Source of the DNA: Acidobacteriota bacterium
Lineage (GTDB): Bacteria > Acidobacteriota > Terriglobia > Versatilivoradales > Versatilivoraceae
DNA: 39,034 bases
Reading direction: 5' to 3'
NCBI GenBank assembly: GCA_022821775.1
Contig: JAJECY010000186.1
Location: forward strand, 1 to 39,034
Notes under the pieces: generated by a model
Told to the model about the DNA's origin: nothing
Databases searched by the model: none
What the model saw: the letters and a program-made list of their open reading frames with translations, nothing else
Position numbers and translations under genes: made by a program
In this document: piece by piece, positions 2,823 through 25,833 of the stretch
Layout of the letters: the number at the start of each line of letters is the position of its first letter
Position numbering within the stretch: position 1 is the stretch's first letter

Positions 2823-3026
2823 CCGGGCTTCCTCCGTCCCCATCCCCAAACCTTCCGCGTCCTGGTGGTCACCGACGTGATCTCCCAGGACGTGCCTTCG
2901 GGGGGACGTGCAGTTCCCAGCCGGCCACGGTATCTCCGGGACCATCCGGATCTACGACCTGCGCCGTCGTGAGGTCTAGTCTGAACAGGGATGCTGGCGG
3001 CACCATTTCCATTTGTTGAGGAGACG

Positions 3027-8879: not shown

Positions 8880-9050
8880 TCGAGGATGAGGCATTTGGGC
8901 CAGAGTTGCGCAGGTCGAATTCCGGGCGACCTCTGCTTCGGGAAGTGCTCCTGCTTGATTTGTCGAGCCGGTCGGTACGTGCGCCCAATTGAGACGAACG
9001 GCGCTCTCCGGTATACTTTCGCCAGAATTGTGTTCCATCGAGGCGAGGGC

Positions 9051-11051
9051 ATGGCTTTCCGGCGAAGGGGTGCGGGGTATTGCGGTTGCGTGGTTCTGAC
9101 CCTTCTGCTGCCGGGTGTCCTGCACGCCGGCTCCGGCGCCGCCGACCTTCAGCCCACCGATCCCGAAGTCATCCACATCTTTCCTCTGGGAGGCCAGCCG
9201 GGGAGTAGTGTGGAGATCGAGATCCAGGGTCGGAACCTGGAGGGGGCCCGCGCCCTCTGGGCGGACAGCGACGCTGTCCAGGGTCGGGTGGTGCGGGTGG
9301 AACCGGGCTCCGCCCGGATGAAAGAGGGGAGGAAGGTCAAGGAGATCCCAGGGCAAAAGGTGGTGGCGGCCGTTGAGATCGACTCGGGAGCCCAACTTGG
9401 CCCCCACGCCTTGAGGCTGGTTTCGGCCAAGGGCGTCTCGAACGAGATGATCTTCTGGGTAGTTCCCATGCCTACGCTGCATGAGACGGACGGCGAGCAT
9501 GGGACTGCGAAGGAAGCTCAGGCCATAGCCGTTCCCTCGGCCCTTAGCGGCCGGATCGCCGAAGAGGGGCAGGCCGACTTCTACCGCTTCCAGACCCATC
9601 CGGGCCAGGAGCTGGCCTTCGAGGTGGTGGAAGGCGTGCAGCGCCTGTGGGGGGACCTCAGGAGGGCTCCGGGATTCTCCCTGGAACTCTCGGGCTCCGG
9701 AGAGAGCTGGTTCGATGGCGAGCGCCGGGTCAAGCTGGGCACCGCCAATACGGCCGTCTTCCACAAGAATATCTCGGCCTACAAGCCCAGGCTGATCCAC
9801 CGTTTCGCAAAGGGCGGCTGGCACACCCTGGAAGTCAAGGGGGAACCGGGAGCCTCCTACCAGCTCCAGATCGGCGCTCCCGCCGACTTTCCTCCGCTGG
9901 TCCGGTCCCACGGCCTCGACAAGCTGGCCCCGGCCCGGTGGCGGGAGCGGGGTTTCGGCCGCAGGCTGGAGCCGGACCGCCTGGTCCGGTTGCAGGCCCG
10001 ATCGGGAGGATCGGCACGCCAGGCTACACTGGCCGTATTGGAAAAGCAGTTGAGGGACCTGATGGGCCTGAGCGGCGAGGAGAGGTCGTCAGGAACCGCT
10101 GCTGCCAGCCCAGCCGCCATTGTCCGGGAACGGGAACCCAACGACGCTACCGAGCAGGCCCTCCCGGTTGCCATTCCCTCCATCATCGAAGGCACCATCG
10201 ACTCTCCCGCGGACGTGGACCACTTCCGTTTCGAACTGGAGGACGGACAGGACCTGGCTTTCGAGATCGAAACCCCCGAGAGTCACTACCCCTACTTCAA
10301 TCCCCGCATCGGGGTCTTCGACCCGGCGGGCAGGGAACTGGTCGACAACATTTACAAGAGGCAGGCCTCTCAGAACATGTGGTTCTGGAAGACGGCCGAA
10401 TCCAAGGCCGTCTTCAGCTTTCCCGAGAGCGGCTCCTACCTGATCCGGGTCCAGGACGTGACCCGCCGCAAGGGCGGGGCCGGGTTCCGCTACCGTCTCA
10501 TGGTTCGTCCCCAGGTGCCGCACGTGGGCGAGGCCGAGGTGGCGGAGGTTCTGAACATTCTGGGCCGGGAGATGCTCGATTGGATGATCGGGCTGGATCG
10601 GGTGAATCTCTATCCGGGCGAGGTCAAGAAGGTGAACGTCATCATCAGCCGGGAGGAGGGGTTTGCCGGAGACCTGGCGGTTTCGGTGGACAATCTCCCC
10701 CAAGGGGTGGAAGTACTGCCGGGTGCCGATATGGGGCCTGAGCTGGGACTGCCGCAGGATCAGGGCCTCAAGGAGGTTTTCGCCGGAGAGGACCAGGTGG
10801 TCACCCTGCTGCTGGCGGTGCGTCCGGACGCGCCCCCTACCCCCACGCCCCGCTGGCTCCGGTTCAATCTGAGGCCGGTCAACCCCGGCCGGCTGAACCG
10901 CTATCGCAAGATGACCGGCGAGGATCCCTTCCGGCCCATCTGGCTGGGGCGGATGGGGCCATCGATACCCGTGGCCCGGATTCCGATGATGGTGCTCCAC
11001 CCCTCGGGAGGCGCACCGGCCGTCAGCCAGGTGATTCCCGCGGGGAACTGA
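9051..11051 (+). CDS. Secreted protein with PPC (bacterial pre-peptidase C-terminal)-like domains
   Basis: ATG at 9051 gives a signal peptide (MAFRRRGAGYCGCVVLTLLLPGVLHA). Two PPC-like stretches: ALSGRIAEEGQADFYRFQTHPGQELAFEV and IIEGTIDSPADVDHFRFELEDGQDLAFEI. Located just upstream of a DUF1549 gene. Confidence 0.78.
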   Translation: MAFRRRGAGYCGCVVLTLLLPGVLHAGSGAADLQPTDPEVIHIFPLGGQPGSSVEIEIQGRNLEGARALWADSDAVQGRVVRVEPGSARMKEGRKVKEIPGQKVVAAVEIDSGAQLGPHALRLVSAKGVSNEMIFWVVPMPTLHETDGEHGTAKEAQAIAVPSALSGRIAEEGQADFYRFQTHPGQELAFEVVEGVQRLWGDLRRAPGFSLELSGSGESWFDGERRVKLGTANTAVFHKNISAYKPRLIHRFAKGGWHTLEVKGEPGASYQLQIGAPADFPPLVRSHGLDKLAPARWRERGFGRRLEPDRLVRLQARSGGSARQATLAVLEKQLRDLMGLSGEERSSGTAAASPAAIVREREPNDATEQALPVAIPSIIEGTIDSPADVDHFRFELEDGQDLAFEIETPESHYPYFNPRIGVFDPAGRELVDNIYKRQASQNMWFWKTAESKAVFSFPESGSYLIRVQDVTRRKGGAGFRYRLMVRPQVPHVGEAEVAEVLNILGREMLDWMIGLDRVNLYPGEVKKVNVIISREEGFAGDLAVSVDNLPQGVEVLPGADMGPELGLPQDQGLKEVFAGEDQVVTLLLAVRPDAPPTPTPRWLRFNLRPVNPGRLNRYRKMTGEDPFRPIWLGRMGPSIPVARIPMMVLHPSGGAPAVSQVIPAGN

Positions 11052-11059
11052 AGGACCGA

Positions 11060-13567
11060 GTGGACAGGATGAGGACAGGGAACAGCAGTCCGGGAGGGAT
11101 CGCGGGAGCTTTTCTCGCCCCCCGTCTCTGCATCATGGGCTTGTTGATCGGGCTGTTGGGTTGGCCGGCACCGCTCTGGTCCGCCGGCCCGAAGACAATC
11201 GGGGAGTCACCCAACGGCGTCCGCCTGCTTTCCGTCAGGCTCCTGCCCGAAGAGGTGCGGCTCCGGGGCAAGGACGCGGTTCAGCAGCTCCTGGTCATCG
11301 GAACCTATGACGACGGGCTGGAGCGGGACCTGACCGAGACTAGCCGGTTCTCCATCGCCGACCCCGAATTGGCCGAGATCGATGCCCGGGGCAGGGTGAA
11401 GGCCCGATCCGACGGCCGGACGCTGCTGACCGTCCAGGCCTCGGGTGGGGATCTCCAGGCGGCCGTGCAGGTGCGGGATTCGGCCGTGAGCCGCCCCCTC
11501 CGTTTCGATCGCGACATCGCCGCGATTCTCACAAAGCGGGGCTGCAACAGCACCGAATGTCACGGCAGCGTCACCGGGCAGGGCGGTTTCAAGCTCTCCA
11601 AGAACGCCACCGCTCCTCGGGAAGATTACCGCTGGATCGTGGAAGGCGGCGCCTTCCACGTCCTCACGGCCGAGACCGGCGAGAAGGCGCCCCGCGTCGA
11701 CCTGGAGGATCCCGCCCTAAGCCTGTTGCTGCTGAAGGCCAGCCTGGCCGTGCCCCACGGCGGCGGCGAGCGGCTCGAGAAGGACTCCCGGGACTATCGG
11801 CGCATCCGGGACTGGATTGACGGGGGCGCGGTCTACGGCCCCGAGAATGGCGCCCGAACCACGCGCCTGGAACGGGTGGCGGTCGCGCCCGGGCAGGTGG
11901 TGCTTTTGAAGGGAGGGGAGCGGCAACTGCTGGTGACCGCCCATTGGGCCGACGGCACCCGGGAGGATTTCACCCGCCGGGTGCGCTACCTTTCCAACAA
12001 CCCCGAAGTGGTTTCGGTGGGACCCGATGGCCGGTTGACGGGGCGGCAAGTGGGCGAGACCGCCATCCAGGTGCTGGCCGGCGGGCGGAGCGCCAGCGCT
12101 ACGGTGGGCGTGATCGAGGAGCCGGTGGGGGCCTATCCCGAGGTCCCACGCCACAACTTCATTGACGAACATGTCTTCGCCAAGGCCCGCAAGTTTCACC
12201 TGGTTCCTTCCCCGCTGTCCTCCGACGCCGAGTTTCTGCGCCGCCTCTGCCTGGACCTGACCGGCAGGCTGCCGCCGGTTCATCGGGTGCGCCAGTTCCT
12301 GGCAGACCCGGACCCGCAGAAGCGCGACCGGCTCATCGACCTGCTGCTCCGTTCGCCCGAGTTCGTGGATCACTGGTCCTGGCGCTTCTACGACTTCCTG
12401 CGGGTGATCAGCCCCGTCTACAAGCAGTGGGTACGCCGGGCCATTGCCGAGAACAAGCCTTACGATCAGTTCGCCCGGGAACGGGTGGCCGCCCAGGGTT
12501 TCGACGGCCCCTCCCGCCACTACGAGGATATGGGGGGCACGGCCGTGCCTCTGCCGCAGAATGCCATGGGGGAGCAGGTGCGGGTCTTTCTGGGCCGGCG
12601 GATGGACTGCGCCCAGTGCCACGACCATCCCTACGAGACCTGGAGCCAGGACCAGTTCTGGGGTCTGACCGCCTTCTTCGGGCGGCTGAGCAACCTCCAT
12701 CCGGGATTCCCCCAGGTGGACTTCGTGATCATGGACGATCCCGAGGGCTACGGCACCTTCGGCAAGGGAGCCAAGGTCATTCACCCCCGCACCAAGCAGG
12801 AGGTTCAACCCAGGTTCCTGGACGGGAGTCCGGTGTCCCGGGACCGGCGGGACGACTGGCGGCTGGCGCTGGCCGAGTGGATGACCTCGCCCGATAACCC
12901 CTACTTCGCCGCGGCCATGGCCAACCGCATGTGGGGCTATTTCTTCGGCAGGGGGATCGTGGATCCGGTGGACGACTTTCGCTCCAACAACCTGGCCACC
13001 CACCCTCGGCTGCTGGAGGCCCTGTCCCGGCACTTTGTCAGAAGCGGGTACGACCTGCGTTCGCTTATTCGCCTCATGGTGGAGTCCAGGACCTACCAGC
13101 TTTCGGGGGATCCCAACTCCTCCAACCGCTATGATCGGGTCAACTATTCCAGGGCGCTTCCGCGCCCCCTGGATAGCGAGGTGCTCTTGAGGGCCATCTC
13201 CCAGGTGAGCGGCGTGAAGGGAGAGGACGGAAACTTCTTCAACGTCTACGGCAAGCCCGACCTGGGCTCCATTCCCGAACGCGACATGAAGCCCAGCCTG
13301 CTGCAGGCCCTGCACCAGTTGGCGGGTCCGACCTTTACCGCCAAGCTCTCCCGCGAGGGAGGCCGGGTGGACCACCTGCTGCAGCGCCGGGCCTCCGATG
13401 AGGCCATCATTGAAGAACTGTATCTGGCAACCCTGTGCCGTTTCCCGACTGAAGGCGAGCAGACTGCGTTGAAAGAAATGATCCGGCGGCAGGATTCACG
13501 GCGAGAGGCGGTGGAGGATCTGCTGTGGGCCCTGGTAAACTCGGAGCAGTTCCTGAACAACCACTGA
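11060..13567 (+). CDS. DUF1549/DUF1553 (planctomycete-type cytochrome c-like) protein with bacterial Ig-like region
   Basis: GTG start (ATG alternative at 11069). CNSTECHGSVTGQGGFKLS (CX4CH), DEHVFAKARKFHL...RLCLDLTGRLPP (DUF1549), CAQCHDHPYETWSQDQFWGLTAFF, NPYFAAAMANRMWGYFFGRGIVDPVDDFR (DUF1553). Confidence 0.92.
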   Translation: MDRMRTGNSSPGGIAGAFLAPRLCIMGLLIGLLGWPAPLWSAGPKTIGESPNGVRLLSVRLLPEEVRLRGKDAVQQLLVIGTYDDGLERDLTETSRFSIADPELAEIDARGRVKARSDGRTLLTVQASGGDLQAAVQVRDSAVSRPLRFDRDIAAILTKRGCNSTECHGSVTGQGGFKLSKNATAPREDYRWIVEGGAFHVLTAETGEKAPRVDLEDPALSLLLLKASLAVPHGGGERLEKDSRDYRRIRDWIDGGAVYGPENGARTTRLERVAVAPGQVVLLKGGERQLLVTAHWADGTREDFTRRVRYLSNNPEVVSVGPDGRLTGRQVGETAIQVLAGGRSASATVGVIEEPVGAYPEVPRHNFIDEHVFAKARKFHLVPSPLSSDAEFLRRLCLDLTGRLPPVHRVRQFLADPDPQKRDRLIDLLLRSPEFVDHWSWRFYDFLRVISPVYKQWVRRAIAENKPYDQFARERVAAQGFDGPSRHYEDMGGTAVPLPQNAMGEQVRVFLGRRMDCAQCHDHPYETWSQDQFWGLTAFFGRLSNLHPGFPQVDFVIMDDPEGYGTFGKGAKVIHPRTKQEVQPRFLDGSPVSRDRRDDWRLALAEWMTSPDNPYFAAAMANRMWGYFFGRGIVDPVDDFRSNNLATHPRLLEALSRHFVRSGYDLRSLIRLMVESRTYQLSGDPNSSNRYDRVNYSRALPRPLDSEVLLRAISQVSGVKGEDGNFFNVYGKPDLGSIPERDMKPSLLQALHQLAGPTFTAKLSREGGRVDHLLQRRASDEAIIEELYLATLCRFPTEGEQTALKEMIRRQDSRREAVEDLLWALVNSEQFLNNH

Positions 13568-13589
13568 TCCGACAAGGAGAGTCCCGGTC

Positions 13590-14933
13590 ATGAATGGAAG
13601 GGGATGCGACAGTTTCTGCGAGAGCCTGGCACGCCGGCACTTTCTGCGGGTGGGGTCCCTGAGCCTGGTGGGAATCCACCTGGGCCAGTATCTCCACATG
13701 AAAGGCCTGATGGCCGCTTCCGGCGCCACGGCTCCCCCGGCCAAGGCCCGGGCCTGCATTCTGCTCCTGCTGGAAGGCGGACCCAGCCAGGTGGATACCT
13801 GGGATCCGAAACCCAGCAGCGGCTTCCGGCCCATCTCCACCAACGTGCCCGGGATCCGGATTTCCGAGATTCTGCCTCGGATGGCCCGCCACATGGACAA
13901 GTTGTCCATCATTCGCTCCATGACTCACGAGGAAGTGGACCATCCCCTGGGGCGAGAGTACATCACCAGCGGACACCGCCCGGCCCCGGCCATGGAGTTT
14001 GCCAGTGTGGGGTCCATCATTGCCCGGGAGCTGGGGCCTCGCAACGACATTCCTCCCTACGTGCTGGGCGCGCCTCATCTCACCCAGCGCTACTATGGAG
14101 CCTCCTCCCTGGGAGCCGCCTACAATCCGCTGGTCGTCCCCGATCCCAGCAAGAAGGACTTCAAGCTCAAGGACCTCACCCTTCCCAAGGCGATCAGCGA
14201 GAAACGGATCGAGGATCGTCGCGGTTTTCTGCAAGTGGTGGACGACCTCTACCGCCGCAAGGAAGCCCTGACGGAAGCAGCCGCGCGCGAGACTTTTCGG
14301 GACAAGGCCATGGAGATGATCCTGTCTCCCGCCATGAAGAAGGCCTTCGATCTCTCCCGGGAATCGGAAACGATCAAGGACGCCTACGGCCGTTACGGGT
14401 TCGGACAGAGCGCCCTGCTGGCCCGGCGGCTGGTGGAAGCCGGCTCCCGCTTCGTCACCGCGGCCGGCTACAACCTGGACAGCGGCTGGGACACTCATGG
14501 CCGGGGTTCGGGGGGAGAGAACGACAAGAAGCTGCGGGCCCTGCTGTGCCCCACCCTGGATCAGACCCTCACGGCTCTGCTGGTCGACCTGGAGCAGCGC
14601 GGACTGCTGGAATCCACCATCGTAATGGCCATGGGCGAGTTCGGCCGCACCCCGGAGATCAACCCCATCAACGGCCGCGACCACTGGCCCTTCTGCTTTT
14701 CCATGGTCCTGGGCGGAGGGGGGCTGCAGGGAGGGCAGGTCATTGGAGCCAGCGACGAGAGGGGCGGGTACGTGGCCGAGCGTCCCATCTCGGTGGGAGA
14801 CGTCTTCGCCACCATCTACAAGGCCATGGGCATCGACTGGACCAGGGAATACATGACCCCGGTAGGCCGGCCCATCAAGATCGCCAACTCCTTCGACGAC
14901 ACCACCGGCCAACCGATCGAGGAGTTGATATAA
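13590..14933 (+). CDS. DUF1501 domain-containing protein with Tat-like signal
   Basis: LARRHFLRVGSLSLVG signal; ACILLLLEGGPSQVDTWDPKP, STIVMAMGEFGRTPEINPINGRDHWP. Confidence 0.93.
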   Translation: MNGRGCDSFCESLARRHFLRVGSLSLVGIHLGQYLHMKGLMAASGATAPPAKARACILLLLEGGPSQVDTWDPKPSSGFRPISTNVPGIRISEILPRMARHMDKLSIIRSMTHEEVDHPLGREYITSGHRPAPAMEFASVGSIIARELGPRNDIPPYVLGAPHLTQRYYGASSLGAAYNPLVVPDPSKKDFKLKDLTLPKAISEKRIEDRRGFLQVVDDLYRRKEALTEAAARETFRDKAMEMILSPAMKKAFDLSRESETIKDAYGRYGFGQSALLARRLVEAGSRFVTAAGYNLDSGWDTHGRGSGGENDKKLRALLCPTLDQTLTALLVDLEQRGLLESTIVMAMGEFGRTPEINPINGRDHWPFCFSMVLGGGGLQGGQVIGASDERGGYVAERPISVGDVFATIYKAMGIDWTREYMTPVGRPIKIANSFDDTTGQPIEELI

Positions 14934-15672: not shown

Positions 15673-16980
15673 GTGACAACCACACCGGATGTTTCAGCAG
15701 CGGGACTACCGGGTTCTGCTCCGCAGCCACTATCCGCGGGAGGCCGCTACCTGATCGTGGTGACGGCCTTTCTGGGGTGGATGTTCGCCGGGGTGCAGAT
15801 GTCCATCACCGCCCTGGCCATGCGTTCGGCGGCCATCGACCTGCTTCAGTCGACCAACGAGGCTCTGGTCGGAAAGTGGTTTGCCTGGTACGTGTGCGCC
15901 TTTCTCTTCGGCGCGGCTGCCGGGGGTTGGCTTTTCGGGCGGCTGGGAGACCGCTTTGGCCGTGTCAGGGCCATGGGGTGGAGCATTCTGTGCCTCTCCA
16001 TTTTCTCCGGCCTGGCCTGGTGGGCTCAAAGTCCCTTCGAGTTGCTGGTCATCCGCTTCCTGACCTGCCTTGGCATCGGGGGCATGTGGCCCAACGGCGT
16101 GGCCATTGTCTCGGAGGCCTGGTCGGATCTCTCGCGACCGATCCTGGCAGGCATCATGGGGACGGCGGCCAACGTGGGCCTGCTCCTGATGGCCTGGACC
16201 GCCACGGGAGTCGAAATCACCCCGGACACCTGGCGCTGGGTGATGCTGGTGGGGGCGGCGCCTGTCGTTTTGGGCCTGTTCGTTCTGGCCGCGGTTCCGG
16301 AATCGCCCCGCTGGTTGGCGCAACGAAACGCTCCCCGAGCCGCCGCGGGAGAGCCTTCCAAACCCACCCCCGAGGTCTTCAGGCCGCCTCTGCGAAGTCT
16401 GACCCTGATCGGGATCGCTTTGGGGACCGTTCCCTTGCTGGGGGGATGGGGCGCCTCCAACTGGATGATCCCCTGGGCCGGCGAGGCCGGCGCGGCGGCG
16501 GATCCGCCGGACCCTTTTCTGAAGTCCTGGGTTCAGTTCTACCGATCTCTGACAGGGACAATCGGCAGCCTCCTGGGGGGCGTCATTGCCAGCCTGGTGG
16601 GCCGCCGCCGCACCTATTTCCTGATGAGTCTGGGAGCACTGTTTTCCAGTCAGTACATGTTCTGGCTGCTCACTCCCACCGATGACACCTTCCTGATTTG
16701 GGCCGCGGCCCTGGGATTTTTCTCCGGTGTCTATTTCGGGTGGCTACCGCTGTTCCTGCCGGAGCTGTTTCCCACCGCCGCCCGTTCCACCGGCGCCGGG
16801 GTCAGCTTCAATTTCGGTCGCATCCTCACGGCGGTGGCCGTTTTGTTGGCCGGATGGCTGATCGCTCACTTCGACGGGGACTATGCCCGCATCGGAAGGG
16901 TAACCAGTTTCATCTACGGGGTCGGAATCGTCGTGATCTTCTTCGCGCCCAAAAGCTCCGACCACAGGCTGAGGGACTGA
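15673..16980 (+). CDS. MFS transporter
   Basis: GTG start. GWLFGRLGDRFGRVRAM, many TM segments, AVPESPRWLAQRN, GRRRTYFLMSLGALF. Confidence 0.9.
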   Translation: MTTTPDVSAAGLPGSAPQPLSAGGRYLIVVTAFLGWMFAGVQMSITALAMRSAAIDLLQSTNEALVGKWFAWYVCAFLFGAAAGGWLFGRLGDRFGRVRAMGWSILCLSIFSGLAWWAQSPFELLVIRFLTCLGIGGMWPNGVAIVSEAWSDLSRPILAGIMGTAANVGLLLMAWTATGVEITPDTWRWVMLVGAAPVVLGLFVLAAVPESPRWLAQRNAPRAAAGEPSKPTPEVFRPPLRSLTLIGIALGTVPLLGGWGASNWMIPWAGEAGAAADPPDPFLKSWVQFYRSLTGTIGSLLGGVIASLVGRRRTYFLMSLGALFSSQYMFWLLTPTDDTFLIWAAALGFFSGVYFGWLPLFLPELFPTAARSTGAGVSFNFGRILTAVAVLLAGWLIAHFDGDYARIGRVTSFIYGVGIVVIFFAPKSSDHRLRD

Positions 16981-17050: not shown

Positions 17051-18361
17051 ATGAAAACGATCACTCGTCGCCAGGTCCTGTCCTACTCCCTGAGCGGATC
17101 GGCCGCTCTGGGGGTGATGGGCACCCTGGCAATCCGGTCCGGCTCCGCCTCGCCCAACCAGAAGGTGAACGTGGCCGTCATCGGCATGAACGGCATGGGC
17201 CACTTTCACGTCAGGACCCTGGCCAACCGGACCGATGCCCACATTGTGACCCTCTGCGACGTGGACCCGGCGGTCCTGCAGAAGGCAAGTGAGACGGTCA
17301 AGAATGCGGCCGGCCATAGGCCCAAGCTGGAAGGCGACTTCCGCCAGGTCCTGGCCGACCCCTCGATTGAGGCGGTCGTCATCGCCACTCCCCACCACTG
17401 GCACGCCCCCATGGCGCTGCGGGCCATGAAGGCCGGCAAGGACGTCTACGTCGAAAAAGCCGCCAGCCATGTCTTTCGAGAGGGCCGGCTGCTGGTTGAG
17501 GCTGAGCGCAAGTACGGCCGGATCTTTCAGCACGGGACCCAGATGCGCGCCAGCCCGCTGCTGGCCCGCGCCGGCGAGATCCTGGCCGCGGGGACCCTGG
17601 GCGAGGTCAAGACGACCAAGGCCTGGAACGTGCAGCGGCAGAAAGAGCGCCCCGTGTTGCCGGATGGTCCGGTTCCCGAGGGAGTCGATTACGACAGGTG
17701 GCTGGGCCCGGCCCCCCAACGCCCCTTCAACCCCAATCGGTTTCATCGCAACTGGAGACTGTTCCGCGACTACAGCAATGGGGACATCGGTGACGACGGG
17801 GCCCACGATCTGGACCTGGCCCGCTGGGCGCTGGGCGTCGACACCCACCCCGAGCGCATCACCGCCCACGGAAGCCGCATAGACCTGGCAGGAGCGCGGG
17901 AATATCCGGACAACATGATGGTGGCCTACCAATATGGGGAAGGCAAGGTGCTCCTCTATGAAGAGCGCCTCTGGACGCCTTACGGGCTCCATGGGTACGA
18001 CAGCGGCAACACCTTCTACGGGACCGAGGGGTACATGGTGCTCTCGCGGCGAGGGTATTTTCAGGTCTACATGGGCAAGAAAGAGCACAAGGGAGAGGGG
18101 ATGAAGGAAGGGAGCCTGGCCGAGACCGGTCGTCAGAACATGGCCCAGTTTCTCCAGTGCGTGCGCGACCGCAAGCGGCCCACCGCTCCCGCCGAAGAAG
18201 CCCACCTTTCCTGCGCCCTGATCCATCTGGGGGAGATCGCCTTCCGGCTCTCCCAGGTGCTGCAATTCGATCCGAAGAGCGAGCGCTTCACCGACAATGC
18301 CCGGGCCGACGCCATGTTGACCAAGGCCTACCGGGAACCCTGGACCGTGGAAGGCCTGTAG
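17051..18361 (+). CDS. Gfo/Idh/MocA family oxidoreductase, Tat-type signal
   Basis: MKTITRRQVLSYSLSGSAALGVMG signal; VNVAVIGMNGMGHFHV Rossmann motif; GNGDIG-like SNGDIGDDGAHDLDLARWAL; EKA in place of EKP. ORF extends upstream to 16991, but 17051 is the better start. Confidence 0.93.
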   Translation: MKTITRRQVLSYSLSGSAALGVMGTLAIRSGSASPNQKVNVAVIGMNGMGHFHVRTLANRTDAHIVTLCDVDPAVLQKASETVKNAAGHRPKLEGDFRQVLADPSIEAVVIATPHHWHAPMALRAMKAGKDVYVEKAASHVFREGRLLVEAERKYGRIFQHGTQMRASPLLARAGEILAAGTLGEVKTTKAWNVQRQKERPVLPDGPVPEGVDYDRWLGPAPQRPFNPNRFHRNWRLFRDYSNGDIGDDGAHDLDLARWALGVDTHPERITAHGSRIDLAGAREYPDNMMVAYQYGEGKVLLYEERLWTPYGLHGYDSGNTFYGTEGYMVLSRRGYFQVYMGKKEHKGEGMKEGSLAETGRQNMAQFLQCVRDRKRPTAPAEEAHLSCALIHLGEIAFRLSQVLQFDPKSERFTDNARADAMLTKAYREPWTVEGL

Positions 18362-18394
18362 TCGCCGGGAACCCCCACTGCAAGGAGGGACGAG

Positions 18395-19465
18395 ATGAGA
18401 CGACGAGAATTCCTGACCACCATCGAGCGCGCCGGCCTGGGAGTGGCCGCCGGCGCCTTAATGACCGCGGGAACCGGCCAGGCACGGGCCGCCGCGGCAC
18501 CCGGCAGGGCCGCCGGACCGCCTGAAAAGACCGGCACCGGACACCGTTTCCGGCTGGCCATGTACACCCCGGAGCTGAGGCTGCCCTTCGACGAGGAGAT
18601 GGCCCAGGCCAAGGAGGTCGGCGTGGACTACGTCTGGTTCAATCGCCTGCTCAACGAGACCCCCGTGGCTGAAATGAGCGACGCGGCCGCCGACCGCATG
18701 GCCCAGCGGGTGGAGCGGCACGGCCTCGAGATCTTTCTGTTCAATGCGGGCAATCCCTTCAAGCACGTTCACCTGACCGACCTGGACCTCAAGACCATGT
18801 CGGATCACCAGGGGTTCAAAAAGGACTTCAAGCACCTGGTTCGCTCCATGCAGATCGCCTCCCGCATCGGGGTGGGGGCGGTGGGCGCCTTCACCTTCGC
18901 CTGGCCGGGCGAGTACTCCAGCGGCAAGCCCACCTGGCCCATGCGCTGGCTCACCCGGGGCGGGGTCATCGCCGAGGTGGACATGGAGAAGCTGGTGAAG
19001 GCCTTCACCCTGGTGGCGGAGGAGGCCGAGCGCTACCAGGTGGACGTGGCCCTCTCCATGATGCCCTGGAACTACACCAACACCACCGGCAACTTCCGCA
19101 GCCTGGTGGAACGGGTGGGCTCCCGCCGCCTCACGGTGATGTGGGGGCCGGCCGACTGCTGGAACTGCGGCGAGTGGGACGTGGCCACCGCCGGCTTCGC
19201 CAACATCCGGCCCTATCTCCACGGGCTTCACCTCAAGGACCTGCACGTGCTGGACGGCCGCAAGCTCAAGTTCGAATACCGTCCGCTCGGCGACGGCGAC
19301 GTGGACTACCTCGCCATTCTGCGCGGCATGCGCGACCACGGCTGCGACGTCTTCCTCTCCCTGGCCACCCACTTCCGCCCCCCCAGCGGCTCCCGCATCG
19401 AGGCCATGAAGATCAACTACCGCAACCTGAACGAGATGATCCGCAAGGTGGAAGCGGAGGCGTAA
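18395..19465 (+). CDS. Sugar phosphate isomerase/epimerase-like TIM-barrel protein, Tat-type signal
   Basis: MRRREFLTTIERAGLGVAAGALM signal; AQAKEVGVDYVWFNRLL, LTVMWGPADCWNCGE, LHGLHLKDLHVLDG, GDGDVDYLAILRGMRDHGCDVFLSL. Confidence 0.85.
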   Translation: MRRREFLTTIERAGLGVAAGALMTAGTGQARAAAAPGRAAGPPEKTGTGHRFRLAMYTPELRLPFDEEMAQAKEVGVDYVWFNRLLNETPVAEMSDAAADRMAQRVERHGLEIFLFNAGNPFKHVHLTDLDLKTMSDHQGFKKDFKHLVRSMQIASRIGVGAVGAFTFAWPGEYSSGKPTWPMRWLTRGGVIAEVDMEKLVKAFTLVAEEAERYQVDVALSMMPWNYTNTTGNFRSLVERVGSRRLTVMWGPADCWNCGEWDVATAGFANIRPYLHGLHLKDLHVLDGRKLKFEYRPLGDGDVDYLAILRGMRDHGCDVFLSLATHFRPPSGSRIEAMKINYRNLNEMIRKVEAEA

Positions 19466-19547
19466 CGACGTTGCTGCAGCTCAAGCTGGAGGTGCCAACC
19501 ACCGCCGGATAAGGGTATAGTGAATCAAGGAATCTTCACCGGGAGAC

Positions 19548-19751
19548 ATGAGAATGCACGTCAAGCAGAGTGTCCAAGCACTTCTCGACCGTTTGCCCGA
19601 CGACTGTAGTCTGGACGATGTGCAGTACCACCTGTATGTCCTGCAGTCCATAGAGCGCGGCCACGCCGACGCCAAGGCCGGCCGGACGATATCCCACCAA
19701 GAGGTGGACCGAGAGCTTCGCAAGAAATGGTTGGTCGACAGCGCCGGGTAA
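19548..19751 (+). CDS. Small antitoxin-like protein of a type II TA module
   Basis: 67 aa, SLDDVQYHLYVLQSIERGHADAKAGRTISHQEVDRELRKKWL. Directly upstream of and overlapping a ParE/RelE-like gene. Confidence 0.75.
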   Translation: MRMHVKQSVQALLDRLPDDCSLDDVQYHLYVLQSIERGHADAKAGRTISHQEVDRELRKKWLVDSAG

Positions 19752-20038
19752 CATGGACCGAAGCGGCCCGGTCGGCGTTGGACGAAATCCTTTCATACAT
19801 CGCTCAAGAGTCGCCCCAGGGTGCGCGGTCGTTGCTGCACCAGGCACTGGAAGCCGCTGCCAGCTTGGCAGTTCTTTCCGAGCGAGGTAGAGTCGTTCCC
19901 GAGCAGGCTGATCCAAGGGTTCGTGAGGTTTTTGTAGGCCGTTATCGGTTGTTGTATGAGGTAAGGCCATCGGAAGTTCTGGTCCTCGCGTTCCTTCACG
20001 GTGCCCGAGACTTTTCAAAATGGCGTAGTGAAAGCTGA
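19727..20038 (+). CDS. ParE/RelE superfamily toxin
   Basis: RRVTWTEAARSALDEILSYIAQESPQGA...REVFVGRYRLLYEVRPSEVLVLAFLHGARDF. Overlaps the antitoxin gene by 25 nt. Confidence 0.82.
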   Translation: MVGRQRRVTWTEAARSALDEILSYIAQESPQGARSLLHQALEAAASLAVLSERGRVVPEQADPRVREVFVGRYRLLYEVRPSEVLVLAFLHGARDFSKWRSES

Positions 20039-20048
20039 TCCGGCTCAG

Positions 20049-21383
20049 ATGGTTACGTTACTGTCAGGAACAAATGACTACGTTCATTCCAAGGTGAAAC
20101 CTCTCACCCGAAGGAACTTTCTGTCCCGGTCGGCCCATGGTGCCGCAGTGGGAGTTCTGGCCCCGGTGTTGGCGACTCATCGGGCCTGGTCCGCCAACGA
20201 CCGGCTGGGGATGGCCGTCATCGGACTGCGGGGGATCGGTAACAGTCATCTGAAGCGTATCCTGGCGCGGCCCGATACGGACTGCCTGGCGGTCTGTGAC
20301 GTGGACGTGGAGTTTCAGGAGCGCGCCGCCGCCGCCGTCATGCAGGCCACCGGACGCAAGCCCAAGGTGGTGAGCGATTTTCGCCTTCTGTTGGATGACG
20401 ACGCCATCGATGCCATGGTGATCGCCACACCCCACCACTGGCACGCTCCCATAGCCGTGCGGGCGCTGCGGGCCGGCAAGGACCTCTACCTGGAGAAGCC
20501 GGCCAGCCACGTGTTCCGGGAGGGGCGTGTGCTGGCCGATACCGCCAAGAAATACGGCCGCATCGTGCAGCACGGCACCCAGATGCGCTCAAGCCCGGTG
20601 ACGGCCAGGGCGGGCGAGTTGTTGCAGGCGGGGGTGATCGGCAAGGTCAAGATGTCGAAGGCCTGGAACCTGCAGCGCCACAACCATCGCGCTCCGGTTC
20701 CGGACGGTCCGGTCCCTCCGGGGGTGGACTACGACATGTGGCTGGGCCCGGCTCCCAAGCGTCCCTTCAACCCCAATCGTTTCCACAGCTACTGGCAGTG
20801 GTACCGCGACTACGGCAACGGCGACATCGGAAACGACGGCAGCCACGACCTGGACCTGGCTCACTTCGGGCTGAACCCCAAGGGCCTTCCCGTCAGGATT
20901 ACCGCTCACGGCAGCCGCATCGATCTGAAAGGGGTGCGGGAGTACCCCGACAACATGATGGTGGCCTATCAGTATCCGGACGACAAGGTGCTGCTCTACG
21001 AGGACCGCGGCTGGACGCCTTACGGAGGCTACGGCTTTGACAGCGGCAACGCCTTCTACGGCACCGAGGGCTTCATGATCTTCTCGCGGCGCGGCTACTT
21101 TCAGGTCTACCTGGGCAAGAAGGAGGAAAAGGGGCCGGGCATGCGGGGCGGTATCGGCAAGGAAGAGCATTTTGCCAATTTCCTGGACTGCGTGCGTTCG
21201 CGCAAGCAGCCCAACGCTCCCATCGAAGTGGCCCACCTCTCCTGCGCCCTCAGCCACCTGGGCGAGGTCGCCTACCGGACCCAGCGGGTGCTTCACTTCG
21301 ATCCGGAAACCGAAACCGTTCGCAACGACCCCGAGGCCAACGCGCTGCTTACCAAGGAGTACCGGGAGCCCTGGTCGGTCTGA
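20049..21383 (+). CDS. Gfo/Idh/MocA family oxidoreductase, Tat-type signal; paralog of 17051-18361
   Basis: LTRRNFLSRSAHGAAVG signal; LEKPASHVFREGR; PFNPNRFHSYWQWYRDYGNGDIGNDGSHDLDLAHFGL nearly matches the paralog. Confidence 0.93.
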   Translation: MVTLLSGTNDYVHSKVKPLTRRNFLSRSAHGAAVGVLAPVLATHRAWSANDRLGMAVIGLRGIGNSHLKRILARPDTDCLAVCDVDVEFQERAAAAVMQATGRKPKVVSDFRLLLDDDAIDAMVIATPHHWHAPIAVRALRAGKDLYLEKPASHVFREGRVLADTAKKYGRIVQHGTQMRSSPVTARAGELLQAGVIGKVKMSKAWNLQRHNHRAPVPDGPVPPGVDYDMWLGPAPKRPFNPNRFHSYWQWYRDYGNGDIGNDGSHDLDLAHFGLNPKGLPVRITAHGSRIDLKGVREYPDNMMVAYQYPDDKVLLYEDRGWTPYGGYGFDSGNAFYGTEGFMIFSRRGYFQVYLGKKEEKGPGMRGGIGKEEHFANFLDCVRSRKQPNAPIEVAHLSCALSHLGEVAYRTQRVLHFDPETETVRNDPEANALLTKEYREPWSV

Positions 21384-21447
21384 GGACGGAGCTAGCCCAT
21401 CGGCCTGTGTCGTCCGCGGCCCCGGTGCGGCCTGGAGAGATTTGCTC

Positions 21448-22449
21448 ATGAAGCTGCTGATCTATCCCGCGGTTGAATCGGAGCGGCTCGGCAAGATCGT
21501 GGAGGCGGCTCGGCCCATGTCGGTGGTGAACACTGCCGATGAGGAAGCGGCCCTGCGGGAGATCGCCGAGGCCGATGCCTTTTTCGGGAAGCTCACGCCC
21601 CGGCTGCTGGAGACTGCGGGGCGGCTGCGCTGGGTGCAGTCTCCCACCGCCAGCCTGGAGCACTACATGTTCCCGGCGCTGGTGGACCACCCCTGCCGGC
21701 TCACCAATATGCGGGGGATCTATGCCGACGTCATTGCCGACCACGTCTTCGGCTACATCATCTGCTTCGCCCGCAATTTCCCCCTTTACCTCCGGCAGCA
21801 GCTCCGCTCTCACTGGGAAGCGGCGGGTGGGGAGGCCGAACGCTCGGGTTTTGTCCTGGGCCCCTCGAGGGTCAGCGGCATGGACCGCGCCCACCGACAT
21901 CTTCCGGATTCAACCCTGGGGATCGTCGGACTGGGTAGCATCGGCTCCGAAATCGCCCGGCGCGGCCTGGCCTTTGGCATGAGGGTGCTGGCCGTGGATC
22001 CCCAGCAACAGCAGGCTCCGGATGGGGTGGAGGCCCTGTGGAGACCGGACCGACTGCCCGACCTGCTCTCGGCCAGCGATTTCGTGGTGGTCGCGGCCCC
22101 GCACACACCCGAGACCGAGAAGCTGTTCCGCCGGCCGCTCTTTCAGCAGATGAAGCCGGAAGCCTACTTCGTCAACATCGGCCGTGGGATGATCGTGGAC
22201 TTGGCCGACCTGACCGAGGCACTGCAGGCGGGCGAAATCGCGGGCGCCGGACTGGACGTCTACGAGATTGAGCCCCTTCCCCCGGACCATCCGCTCTGGA
22301 AGATGGACAACGTGATCCTCACTCCCCACGTGGCCGCCGCTACGCCCAGAATCGCCGAACGGCACCTGGCCGTGCTACTGGACAACGTGCGCCGTTTCGC
22401 CGCTGGCAGACCCCTGCGCAACCTGGTGGATAAGGCCAAGTGGTATTAG
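21448..22449 (+). CDS. D-2-hydroxyacid dehydrogenase family protein
   Basis: ATG at 21448 (MKLLIYPAVES...). STLGIVGLGSIGSEIARRGLAFGMRVLAVDP; FVNIGRGMIVDLADLTEALQAGEIAGAGLDVYEIEPLPPDHPLWKMDNVILTPHVA. Confidence 0.93.
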   Translation: MKLLIYPAVESERLGKIVEAARPMSVVNTADEEAALREIAEADAFFGKLTPRLLETAGRLRWVQSPTASLEHYMFPALVDHPCRLTNMRGIYADVIADHVFGYIICFARNFPLYLRQQLRSHWEAAGGEAERSGFVLGPSRVSGMDRAHRHLPDSTLGIVGLGSIGSEIARRGLAFGMRVLAVDPQQQQAPDGVEALWRPDRLPDLLSASDFVVVAAPHTPETEKLFRRPLFQQMKPEAYFVNIGRGMIVDLADLTEALQAGEIAGAGLDVYEIEPLPPDHPLWKMDNVILTPHVAAATPRIAERHLAVLLDNVRRFAAGRPLRNLVDKAKWY

Positions 22450-22550
22450 GCCGCCGAGAGCAGGAATCCCTTGAGAAGCCGTGACGGGTTGGTGTTGTTT
22501 TGGAGAGGCACTATGGTCCGGGACCTGGCTCTTGGTTCGTCGCGTACGCG

Positions 22551-22612
22551 GCTGCGGCAGTGCGGGATCAGACGACCCTAGGCTCCCGCCCGGGACTACC
22601 CTGAGCCGCAGC
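22551..22612. other. Nested inverted repeat / potential stem-loop in an intergenic region
   Basis: GCTGCGGC (22551-22558) pairs with GCCGCAGC (22605-22612). Nested inside, GCGGGA (22562-22567) pairs with TCCCGC (22584-22589). Confidence 0.55.
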
Positions 22613-22787
22613 TACGCTGCTCTATAGGGATGGCCTGTAGGTGGCGTTTCCTCGGGTAACCACGTCAACCGCCTCCGGTTTCAACCCGTTTGTAGTGCCA
22701 CTTGCGGTTTTTTGTCTTTGTAACGTGTTGATAATAAACGTGCGATCAGAAACGTTGTTAAAGATGGGCTAGTATTTGAATCATCTT

Positions 22788-23051
22788 ATGCCGAACGAAA
22801 AACCGAACAGCCGAAGTCCGGCTCGCCGTGCACGGTTGTTTCGCATTGGCCGCAATCAGGCTGTTTGAATTCCGCGAGAGTTTGAATTGAACGCAGACGA
22901 AGTGTTGATTAGCAGGGAAGGCGGCAGTCTGGTGATCGAGCCTGTCCAAAAACGTCCATCACTTGCCGAGGTCTTGTCCCGTTTGAAGCCCTTGGACGAG
23001 GACTTCCCGAATATCCCGGACCCGGCTACCAAGCCCCAGGATCTCCTCTGA
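22788..23051 (+). pseudogene. vapB: VapB-type (AbrB/MazE-fold) antitoxin relic with in-frame TGA
   Basis: MPNEKPNSRSPARRARLFRIGRNQAV[TGA 22866-22868]IPREFELNADEVLISREGGSLVIEPVQKRPSLAEVLSRLKPLDEDFPNIPDPATKPQDLL*. Colinear with VapB layout, with the stop where R/K is normally expected. Confidence 0.75.
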
Positions 23052-23077
23052 CGTGCCCCACCTTCAATCAGTCCCTC

Positions 23078-24043
23078 TCACTCCATCCAGGGTTGCAGGA
23101 AGCTGGCGCTACGGCGGGCGGCTTCGGACACTGACATGATGCCCGCGAAGGCCTGGTGCACGGTGACGTAGCCCCGGTATTCGACCTCCTGCAGGCCCTG
23201 GAAGACCTCGTCGAAATCGATCCCTCCCGGTTCCCAAAGGCCGATGTGGTCCAGCCGAACCGGGCCCCGGTTCCAGGTGCGGACCGCGCCCTCTCCCTCG
23301 GGATTGAGGCGGTGGTTCTGGACGTAGACGTTGAACAGGTACGGACCCAGCTTCTTGATGGTCTCCCGGCCGTAGTCTTCTCCCGCGATCATCCAGTTGG
23401 CGGGTTCGTAGATGATCCCGAAGTTGGGCCGGTCCACCTTCTGCAGCACCTGGAGGGAGCCCTCCACCGTCTCGAACAGGCTGGCGCAGTGGGACTGGTG
23501 GGCCAGGCGGATGCCCCGCTCGGCGGCGGTGTCGGAGGCCCTTTGCGCCCAGGGGATGTCCTCTTCCTTCTTCATGCAGATCCGGATCAGGTCGGCCCCG
23601 AAGGTTTCCGCCAGGTCCAGGTAGGGCGCGATGTTGCGCAGGCCGGAGGGCCCCAGCTCGTCGTTGCGGGGCACGGCGAAGTCTCCGGTGACCATGGAGA
23701 CGGTGAGGTCGGCCTCCCCGATCTGCCGGCTCATGCGGTTCACCTGTTCACGCGGGGAATGGATGCCTGCCTGGGATGCCCGCATGCAAAGGGCCCGATA
23801 CCCATGGTCCCGGGCCAGGTCGATGAGTTGCGCCAGGTTCAGAGAGGCTTCCTCCTTGTTGGAAAAGCTCTCCGCAACCCGGGCCGACAGCGATAGTTTC
23901 ATGCGAGTCTCCTTGCCATCCGCCTGTCCGGATGGCTTCTTGCCGCCGCTCCCCCTGGAGGCGCAGCTCCAGCCTGCGCCCAGCAGCATGAGTTGGAATG
24001 AAGTCCGAAGAAAATCCCGGCGGTCGGGGGGCCTGCCATGCAT
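23078..24043 (-). CDS. Sugar phosphate isomerase/epimerase-like TIM-barrel protein, Tat/lipoprotein-like signal
   Basis: PDRRDFLRTSFQLMLLGAGWSCAS signal; HGYRALCMRASQAGIHSPREQV, GIRLAHQSHCASLFETVEGSLQVLQKVDRPNFGIIYEPANWM, GGIDFDEVFQGLQEVEYRGYVTVHQAF. Confidence 0.88.
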   Translation of the reverse strand: MHGRPPDRRDFLRTSFQLMLLGAGWSCASRGSGGKKPSGQADGKETRMKLSLSARVAESFSNKEEASLNLAQLIDLARDHGYRALCMRASQAGIHSPREQVNRMSRQIGEADLTVSMVTGDFAVPRNDELGPSGLRNIAPYLDLAETFGADLIRICMKKEEDIPWAQRASDTAAERGIRLAHQSHCASLFETVEGSLQVLQKVDRPNFGIIYEPANWMIAGEDYGRETIKKLGPYLFNVYVQNHRLNPEGEGAVRTWNRGPVRLDHIGLWEPGGIDFDEVFQGLQEVEYRGYVTVHQAFAGIMSVSEAARRSASFLQPWME

Positions 24044-24168: not shown

Positions 24169-25833
24169 ATGCCGCCCATGACGGGATCCCGCTACTTCGC
24201 CGAGGCCATGCAGGCCTATGAGATCACCCACGTCTTTCTGGTCCCCACCATCCTGACGCCCGCCCTGGCGGAAATGGAAGACCTGAATATCGTGCGGGTC
24301 ACGGCCCACAGCGAGAAGGCGGCCGTCTACATGGCCGACGGCTACGCTCGAATCTCGGGCAGGCCCGGGGTGGCCATGGCCCAGACCATCGGCGCGGCCA
24401 ACCTGGCGGCGGGGCTGCGGGATCCCTATCTGGCCTGTGCCCCCGTCATTGCCATCAATGGTGGCAAGCTTCCCGAGAGCAAACACCGCGGCGTCTACCA
24501 GGAAGTGGATGACTTTCCCCTGTTCGAGCCCTTGAGCAAGTTCAACGCCCAGGTGGATCTGCCCCAGCGGCTGCCCGACCTGCTCCGCCAGGCCTTCCGC
24601 GAAGCCACCACCGGATGTCCGGCTCCGGTTCACCTGGAGATCGCCGGCAACTTCGGTCAGGCGATTGAGGGGGAGGCCGACCTGGACGCGGTCTTCGAGC
24701 CCCAATTCGCTCGATTTCCCGCCATCCGCCCTCGTCCGGATCCCGCCAGTTTGCGGCGGGCGGCCGATCTGTTGAGCCGAAGCCGCCGGCCGGTCTTCGT
24801 TGCCGGCGGAGGGGTCACCCTTTCCGGGGCGCAAGCCGAAGTGAGGCAGTTGGCGGAAAGGCTCTCCATCCCGGTGGCGACCTCTCTGAACGCCAAGGGG
24901 ACCCTCCCGGAAAACCACTCCCTGTCGATCGGGGTGGTGGGCTCCTATTCCCGAGCCTGCGCCAACCGGCTGGTGGCCGAGGCCGACCTGGTTTTTTTCA
25001 TCGGCAGCCGCACCGGGGGGCAGGTCACCAACAGTTGGCGCATCCCGCCCAAGGGGACCCCCGTCCTTCAACTGGACATCGAGCCCGGGGAACTGGGCCG
25101 CAACTACCCCAACCTCTGCAGCTTGTGGGGGGACGCCAAGGTCGGGCTGCAGGAGTTGAACGCGGCCCTGGCCTCGCGGCCGCCCGACTCCGGGTGGCTC
25201 TCGCGGGTGGAGCAGGTGGTGGCCGAGTGGCGTGCCGAGGTGGCTCCCCTGCGGTCTTCTCCGGCGGTGCCCATGCGCCCGGAGCGCCTCTGCAGGGAAA
25301 TCCAGTCGGCCTTGCCGGCGGACGCGATCCTGGTGTCGGATACCGGCCACTCGGGGATCTGGTCGGGAACCCATATCGAGTTGCACCATCCCGGCCAGAG
25401 CTACATCCGGGCTGCCGGATCGCTGGGCTGGGGGCTGCCGGCGGCCATCGGGGCCAAGTGCGCCGCGCCCCGGCGACCGGTGGTCTGCTTTACCGGCGAC
25501 GGCGGCTTCTATTACCACCTGTCGGAGTTGGAGACGGCCCTCCGATACGGCATCCATCCCGTGATCGTGGTGAACGACAACCGTTCTCTCAATCAGGAGA
25601 CCGAGATATTCGCCAGCGCCTACGGGGGGGTGCAGCGCCAGGGCTTGGAGATGTGGCAGTTCCGGGACCTGGACATCGCCGCCATGGCCGAGTCCCTGGG
25701 CTGCCGGGGCATCCGGGTGGAGCAGCCCGAGGGGGTCGTCCCCGCCCTGGAGGAGGCCCTGCGTGCCGACCGCCCGGTGGTGCTGGACGCGGTCACCGAC
25801 ATGGAGGCGCTGGCTCCCGATCCCTGGGGGTAA
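24169..25833 (+). CDS. Thiamine pyrophosphate-dependent enzyme (acetolactate synthase-like)
   Basis: TAHSEKAAVYMADGYARISGRPGVAMAQTIGAANLAAGL; VCFTGDGGFYYHLSELETALRYGIHPVIVVNDNRSLNQE (TPP-binding GDG...NDN motif). Confidence 0.93.
   Translation: MPPMTGSRYFAEAMQAYEITHVFLVPTILTPALAEMEDLNIVRVTAHSEKAAVYMADGYARISGRPGVAMAQTIGAANLAAGLRDPYLACAPVIAINGGKLPESKHRGVYQEVDDFPLFEPLSKFNAQVDLPQRLPDLLRQAFREATTGCPAPVHLEIAGNFGQAIEGEADLDAVFEPQFARFPAIRPRPDPASLRRAADLLSRSRRPVFVAGGGVTLSGAQAEVRQLAERLSIPVATSLNAKGTLPENHSLSIGVVGSYSRACANRLVAEADLVFFIGSRTGGQVTNSWRIPPKGTPVLQLDIEPGELGRNYPNLCSLWGDAKVGLQELNAALASRPPDSGWLSRVEQVVAEWRAEVAPLRSSPAVPMRPERLCREIQSALPADAILVSDTGHSGIWSGTHIELHHPGQSYIRAAGSLGWGLPAAIGAKCAAPRRPVVCFTGDGGFYYHLSELETALRYGIHPVIVVNDNRSLNQETEIFASAYGGVQRQGLEMWQFRDLDIAAMAESLGCRGIRVEQPEGVVPALEEALRADRPVVLDAVTDMEALAPDPWG

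Follow-up and report, generated by a model that had tools for sequence, protein, structure and literature searches.

A conserved TIM barrel lacking most of the canonical metal ligands, encoded beside predicted sugar dehydrogenases in an Acidobacteriota genome

Contig JAJECY010000186.1 of an Acidobacteriota bacterium, the 39 kb stretch of DNA analysed here as a whole (the window; the genome comprises 4.4 Mb in 312 contigs), carries genes for two oxidoreductases of the Gfo/Idh/MocA family, Gfo1 and Gfo2, and between them the gene for TIM1, a protein with the xylose-isomerase-like triosephosphate isomerase (TIM) barrel fold. TIM1 replaces the canonical metal ligands of this fold, Glu-Asp-His-Glu, with Ser221-Gly251-His279-Ala324, three of the four being lost, and the position of the catalytic histidine is taken by Met223. 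Every readable homologue from 55 loci has lost these ligands, and within the genus two groups of paralogues have lost them as well. An initial annotation of the region had proposed that TIM1 and a second barrel, TIM2, are the cleaving enzymes of a 3-keto-glycoside elimination route, and had named as grounds for abandoning this idea a barrel site devoid of the metal-binding and catalytic residues of the known lyases; such a site is what TIM1 and its subfamily have. Our preferred interpretation, to which we give a probability of about 0.42, is that Gfo1, Gfo2 and TIM1 form a unit exported by the twin-arginine translocation (Tat) pathway, in which TIM1 would act on the keto product of a dehydrogenase without the standard metal centre.

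The metal site of TIM1

Keto-glycoside eliminases of this fold hold their metal through ligands at the ends of strands 5 to 8 (PMC8563793, PMC10628242). In AgCGD2 these are Glu147, Asp179, His269 (with Lys271) and Glu305, each of them important, and the alanine variants of the CGDs at E147, D179, H269, K271 and E305 are strongly impaired (PMC8563793). In AtOGE they are His132, Asp163, His189 and Glu233, with His in place of Glu; this enzyme is sensitive to EDTA, and its H189A and H134A variants are inactive (PMC10628242). The catalytic histidine, His143 in PuCGE and His134 in AtOGE, lies two residues past the first ligand. These C- and O-glycoside β-eliminases, which use keto-sugars made by oxidoreductases, resemble TIM1 and TIM2 in their TIM-barrel fold, as judged by PF01261 matches, AlphaFold2 (AF2) models and Foldseek. 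They require, however, a Mn2+ site and a catalytic histidine, neither of which TIM1 has in canonical form and of which TIM2 has only the histidine; where they carry Glu/His-Asp-His-Glu, TIM1 has Ser-Gly-His-Ala and TIM2 Gln-Glu-Tyr-His.

DSSP of the AF2 model (pLDDT 86.9) puts S221, G251, H279 and A324 at the positions where strands 5, 6, 7 and 8 reach their C-terminal ends. The first three positions were aligned against the 2-hydroxy-3-keto-glucal hydratase AtHYD (PDB 8ro4) and the last against an outgroup protein, L017. At these sites TIM1 reads LSMMP, WGPA and HLKD, compared with the canonical YELHP, YDPS and HVKD of 8ro4, whereas the nearest outgroups retain canonical residues (WDPAN, HVKD and SLETHY in L017; LETG, WDPC and HIKD in L143). 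Most other PF01261 proteins of the same genome carry Glu-Asp-His-Glu in the same alignment, implying that the alignment is sound. AtHYD and 2zds are among the closest folds found by Foldseek, and the TIM1 profile aligns with 8ro4 over most of the barrel (E 0.005, the second-best profile match); a profile was required to reach it, a phmmer search of the single TIM1 sequence against the PDB giving no match at E 0.001. The likeness is one of profile and fold, the canonical YELH/YDP/HVKD site being present only in AtHYD, and the strand-5 Glu-X-His and strand-6 Asp that mark hydratases of the AtHYD type are missing from the TIM1 profile. As far as sequence can tell, TIM1 is without the active site of any known 3-keto-glycoside lyase in the comparison, and the known elimination route is unlikely to be assignable to it. 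This type of active site, and its spread, appear to be undescribed in the literature that we searched, the residues of the Bacteroides lyase BT2156 lying outside the comparison; the folds and partner families are already known, and it is the active-site variant that appears to be new.

In 32 of 32 sequences the residues Glu173, Lys199, Tyr227, Asp254, Glu260, His279, Lys281, Asp282 and His326 are unchanged, and these include residues (for example Asp254, His279, His326 and Glu173) that could bind a metal at a shifted site and so support isomerase, lyase or hydratase reactions assisted by a metal in the ordinary way. Comparison of WGPAD and SLATHF in TIM1 with WDPAN and SLETHY in L017 places an acid three residues past the lost Asp, and the ligand set does vary in AtOGE (PMC10628242). 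We nevertheless consider a displaced metal distinctly unlikely, given that the canonical carboxylates of strands 5 and 8 have become Ser, Gly, Ala or Cys and Ala or Ser, respectively, across the family, with no obvious substitute.

Spread and conservation of the TIM1 family

The altered motifs SMMPW, WGPADN, HLKDL and ATHF are conserved across about 50 TIM1 homologues with readable sites. Going by the titles given by submitters, these homologues occur in Acidobacteriota, Chloroflexota, Poribacteria and Latescibacterota and in single bins labelled Planctomycetota and Gemmatimonadota, which may be mis-binned; Actinomycetota is not counted, the title 'Acidimicrobiia' of loci L036 and L038 being probably wrong. 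Bins of Poribacteria, Caldilineaceae, SAR202/Dehalococcoidia and Latescibacteria are among the carriers, a set of lineages characteristic of sponges and seawater, and record titles suggest that the source genome is probably associated with a marine sponge. The subfamily is sharply set off from its relatives: across 297 genomes of the phylum, true members match at E about 1e-138, whereas the next match has an E value of 6e-14. The TIM1 gene tree matches the phyla only in part, and horizontal transfer is possible.

Decay of the gene was considered as an explanation for the lost site and rejected. Within the genus the ratio of non-synonymous to synonymous substitution rates (dN/dS) of TIM1 is 0.18-0.20 (about 0.19), which, together with the conserved replacement residues and the linkage with Gfo genes described below, argues that the site was not lost through decay.

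Linkage with Gfo genes

A search with a Gfo profile found a Gfo gene no more than 3 kb from TIM1 in 36 of the 55 loci. The density of matches is 13-fold higher within 3 kb (43 matches, 0.147/kb) than beyond 5 kb (4 matches, 0.011/kb), the loci being not independent of each other. In several loci only 0-14 bp separate the two genes, and in one (L051) TIM2, two Gfo genes and TIM1 are contiguous. The linkage recurs in Acidobacteriota, in one Planctomycetaceae bin and in several Chloroflexota lineages, with a partner that differs by lineage, BT_2158-like in Acidobacteriota and IolG-like in Chloroflexota. With 38 PF01408 and 29 PF01261 matches, the genome of the window has further Gfo/TIM clusters, for example on contig C195; such clustering is not due to chance, yet it is not unusual for this genome.

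A tight neighbourhood of this kind, seen beside a subfamily in which three metal ligands and the catalytic histidine are gone, would also be expected if TIM1 were a pseudoenzyme, a non-catalytic barrel that binds the sugar or the Gfo protein and acts as a dehydrogenase subunit providing specificity or a scaffold. The β subunit of the C-deglycosidases, an accessory subunit without metal, offers a precedent, though it is a β-sandwich (PMC8563793). The invariance of His279-X-Lys281-Asp282, Asp254, His326, Glu173 and Lys199, however, exceeds what binding alone usually demands, and the change of Gfo partner subfamily between phyla speaks against a dedicated subunit; we therefore regard this explanation as unlikely, if a serious one.

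The oxidoreductases

Gfo1 and Gfo2 have the Gfo/Idh/MocA fold together with its catalytic lysine and histidine, recognised by motif alignment (EKA/EKP and GAH/GSH). In Gfo1 the lysine lies within EKA instead of EKP, with the histidine and the aspartate four residues before it, Asp(H-4), both retained (GDIGDDGAH). In Gfo2 the latter position holds Asn, and most of the Gfo2-like proteins encoded next to TIM1 have Gly there, the Gfo2 type being the commonest TIM1 neighbour in Acidobacteriota. For both proteins the top NCBIfam match is the BT_2158-type glycoside 3-dehydrogenase (NF058561), over the N-terminal ~290 of 487 model positions; at 144 and 146 bits, far under the cut-off of 750, the scores do not place them within that family. 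The levoglucosan dehydrogenase equivalog (NF052479, cut-off 650) is matched with only 56.5 and 53.2 bits. Their nearest solved structures are PDB 8tdf and 8tdh, at E about 1e-24 (7e-25 for Gfo1 with 8tdf). The view that these are enzymes of the Bacteroides type is borne out to the extent that the best family match and the solved relatives are glycoside dehydrogenases. Gfo1 and Gfo2 are thus predicted, by family, to be sugar dehydrogenases, and they are distant relatives of Bacteroides BT_2158, their best-scoring known relative, with which they have the catalytic lysine and histidine in common.

Inositol 2-dehydrogenase (IolG) is the second-best NCBIfam match of Gfo1 and Gfo2, and for the Chloroflexota partners it ranks first. 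A thiamine diphosphate (ThDP) enzyme is found near TIM1 in three lineages, represented by the window, Caldilineaceae and Poribacteria (L041, L043-L046). Both observations could be accommodated by an inositol-type catabolism of cyclitols or sugar acids in place of glycoside cleavage, with Gfo acting as IolG, the barrel as IolE or IolI and the ThDP enzyme as IolD. Every iolG score is far under its cut-off, however, and Tat export is unusual for inositol enzymes. The three ThDP enzymes, moreover, fall in different subfamilies (PRK06112-, PRK06154- and PRK08266-like), and the identification of the ThDP enzyme as IolD is unsupported, IolD not being among the top matches listed. We regard an inositol pathway as quite improbable.

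Gene order and the second barrel

The five genes to which attention was first drawn, those for Gfo1, TIM1, Gfo2, a D-2-hydroxyacid dehydrogenase (DHDH) and TIM2, are all present as intact open reading frames (ORFs) with Pfam matches (Table 1). Twin-arginine motifs can be read directly at the N termini of Gfo1 (TRRQVLS), TIM1 (RRREFLT), Gfo2 (TRRNFLS) and TIM2 (RRDFLR). The order MFS-Gfo1-TIM1-Gfo2-DHDH is conserved within the genus, orthologues of the cluster genes being 86-97% identical, and dN/dS within the genus is 0.14-0.20 for Gfo1, TIM1 and Gfo2 and 0.13-0.29 for TIM2.

Table 1. Genes in and around the Gfo1-TIM1-Gfo2 unit (window positions)
Feature	Position	Strand	Remarks
MFS transporter	15673..16980	+	PF07690 85 bits; directly 5' of Gfo1, same direction; conserved in L032-L035
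Gfo1, Tat-type Gfo/Idh/MocA dehydrogenase	~17051..18361	+	PF01408 60 bits, PF19051 108 bits
TIM1, Tat-type xylose-isomerase-like TIM barrel	18395..19465	+	PF01261 87.5 bits
Gfo2, Tat-type Gfo/Idh/MocA dehydrogenase	20001..21383 (ORF)	+	PF01408 60 bits; true start probably ~20094
D-2-hydroxyacid dehydrogenase (DHDH), without signal peptide	~21448..22449	+	PF02826 182 bits; conserved in L032-L034
TIM2, Tat-type xylose-isomerase-like TIM barrel	23078..24043	-	PF01261 56 bits
ThDP (TPP) enzyme, acetolactate-synthase type	24169..25833	+	Divergent from TIM2; Pfam and NCBIfam; dN/dS about 0.1

The conserved linkage of Gfo and TIM genes is real, but the stretch is not one operon. TIM2 lies on the strand opposite to the other four genes, across a gap of 0.6 kb, and its distance from TIM1 varies from 3.6 kb in the window to about 14 kb in a relative, G001, where a CRISPR-Cas locus (Cas4-Cas1 fusion, Cas3 and a GSU0054-family protein; L138, 6218-14641) intervenes between DHDH and TIM2. 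A single operon running from Gfo1 to TIM2 was rejected on these grounds. Between DHDH and TIM2 the window also holds the remnant of an AbrB/VapB-type antitoxin-like frame, broken by a stop codon (22790-23052, + strand).

Could TIM2 be the lyase that TIM1 appears not to be? Its ligand positions, taken from the strand ends of an AF2 model (pLDDT 80.6), are Gln183, Glu213, Tyr240 and His296, so that each of the four departs from the canonical residue, and the canonical lysine is replaced by Gln. The catalytic-histidine position is retained as the invariant His185, two residues on from the first ligand site. His182, Gln183, His185, Glu213, Asn216, Tyr240, Gln242, Asn243 and His296 are invariant in 16 TIM2 orthologues, including those of Chloroflexota, and the match to AtHYD 8ro4 is weak (E 0.0027). 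TIM2 represents a second conserved, Gfo-linked barrel subfamily with its own altered site, at which a metal might be bound through unusual ligands; it need not share a pathway with Gfo1-TIM1-Gfo2.

A precedent for a lyase role is the levoglucosan pathway of Bacillus smithii (LgdA-LgdB1-LgdB2-LgdC), in which two oxidoreductases of Gfo/Idh/MocA type and two sugar-phosphate-isomerase-like barrels, the composition seen here, accomplish oxidation, elimination, hydration and reduction without a DUF1080 protein (PMC7676230). The Lgd genes form a single locus, whereas TIM2 is separated from Gfo1-TIM1-Gfo2 in a relative; Mn2+ is required for glucose formation and enhances the LgdB2 step (PMC7676230), whereas TIM1 is without the canonical metal site. 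In the Bacteroides-type 3-keto route, by contrast, the cluster includes a DUF1080 enzyme. The initial annotation had observed, correctly, that the window has no DUF1080 (PF06439) gene; this absence carries no evidential weight, and was rejected as evidence, because ten PF06439 matches occur elsewhere in the genome and the Lgd pathway runs without one.

The proposal that TIM1, TIM2 or both follow the Gfo oxidases as 3-keto-glycoside lyases, in the manner of the Bacteroides enzymes or of the C-glycoside or O-glycoside eliminases, draws on the BT_2158-type similarity of Gfo1 and Gfo2, on the Lgd precedent and, mainly, on TIM2, with its His185, its candidate ligands Gln183, Glu213 and His296, and the Gfo genes that adjoin its orthologues in L129-L132. 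Against this stand the essential metal site of the known lyases (PMC8563793, PMC10628242), altered in both barrels, and the position of TIM2 outside the Gfo transcription unit, and we judge a lyase role to be quite improbable. The notion of a variant of the known route survives in the family of the dehydrogenases and in the Gfo-TIM linkage, not in the cleaving role given to the barrels.

Proposed role of TIM1

We favour a scheme in which Gfo1, Gfo2 or both would convert a hydroxyl group on a sugar, glycoside or cyclitol into a ketone by oxidation. In a next step TIM1 would isomerise, epimerise, eliminate or hydrate the keto compound without the divalent-metal centre used by its relatives, relying instead on the invariant His279-X-Lys281-Asp282, Asp254, His326, Glu173 and Lys199. 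The intact genes, the family and predicted fold, the subfamily-wide loss of ligands, the purifying selection and the Gfo linkage are its observed basis; Tat export, catalysis by TIM1 on the Gfo product and independence of metal are what the scheme would add. The ThDP enzyme (Table 1) is a possible downstream step.

Several observations weigh against this scheme. The invariant residues of TIM1 could just as well bind a sugar with no catalysis taking place, or belong to a different metal site. The Foldseek match to AtHYD is not specific, as many epimerases score alike. For many homologues from Chloroflexota and Poribacteria the alignment starts only at about residue 24-48 of TIM1 and no Tat signal can be seen, implying that export is not general. 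Poribacteria TIM1 genes, furthermore, have no Gfo gene within the examined flanks (up to 10 kb), and an adjacent Gfo is therefore not obligatory.

A broader proposal, which we put forward tentatively, is that TIM1 founds a metal-independent family of the xylose-isomerase-like superfamily, marine and probably sponge-associated and present in at least four phyla, in which a new site composed of the HxKD motif, Asp254 and His326 replaces the metal and acts on keto-sugars from the neighbouring Gfo enzymes. In those keto-sugar lyases and isomerases of this fold that have been characterised, polarisation of the ketone is believed to depend on a divalent metal. The TIM1 family offers a direct test of whether the chemistry of the fold can proceed without a metal or whether the barrel was instead co-opted as a binding partner, and it cautions that gene content alone is insufficient for annotating Gfo/TIM clusters as 3-keto-glycoside pathways.

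Other genes

In Caldilineaceae a gene for a PhyH-type dioxygenase lies immediately 5' of TIM1. On the 3' side of the ThDP enzyme, the window encodes a 3-hydroxyacyl-CoA-dehydrogenase-like protein, an SDR protein and a sodium:solute symporter, in that order. A 1783-residue protein (2991-8342, + strand) combines a reprolysin-like metallopeptidase domain with fn3 and many NHL/teneurin-type β-propeller repeats, and has a partial match (64%) in G001, 3' of the symporter. It is followed by a 721-residue ORF (8886-11051, + strand) that is co-directional with its neighbours and has no Pfam match. Finally, DUF1549/DUF1553 (PSCyt2/PSD1) proteins and a DUF1501 protein are encoded at 11060-14933 (+ strand) and 31278-33833 (- strand), the first having also a Big_2 domain; these families are best known from Planctomycetes and are found here in an Acidobacteriota genome.

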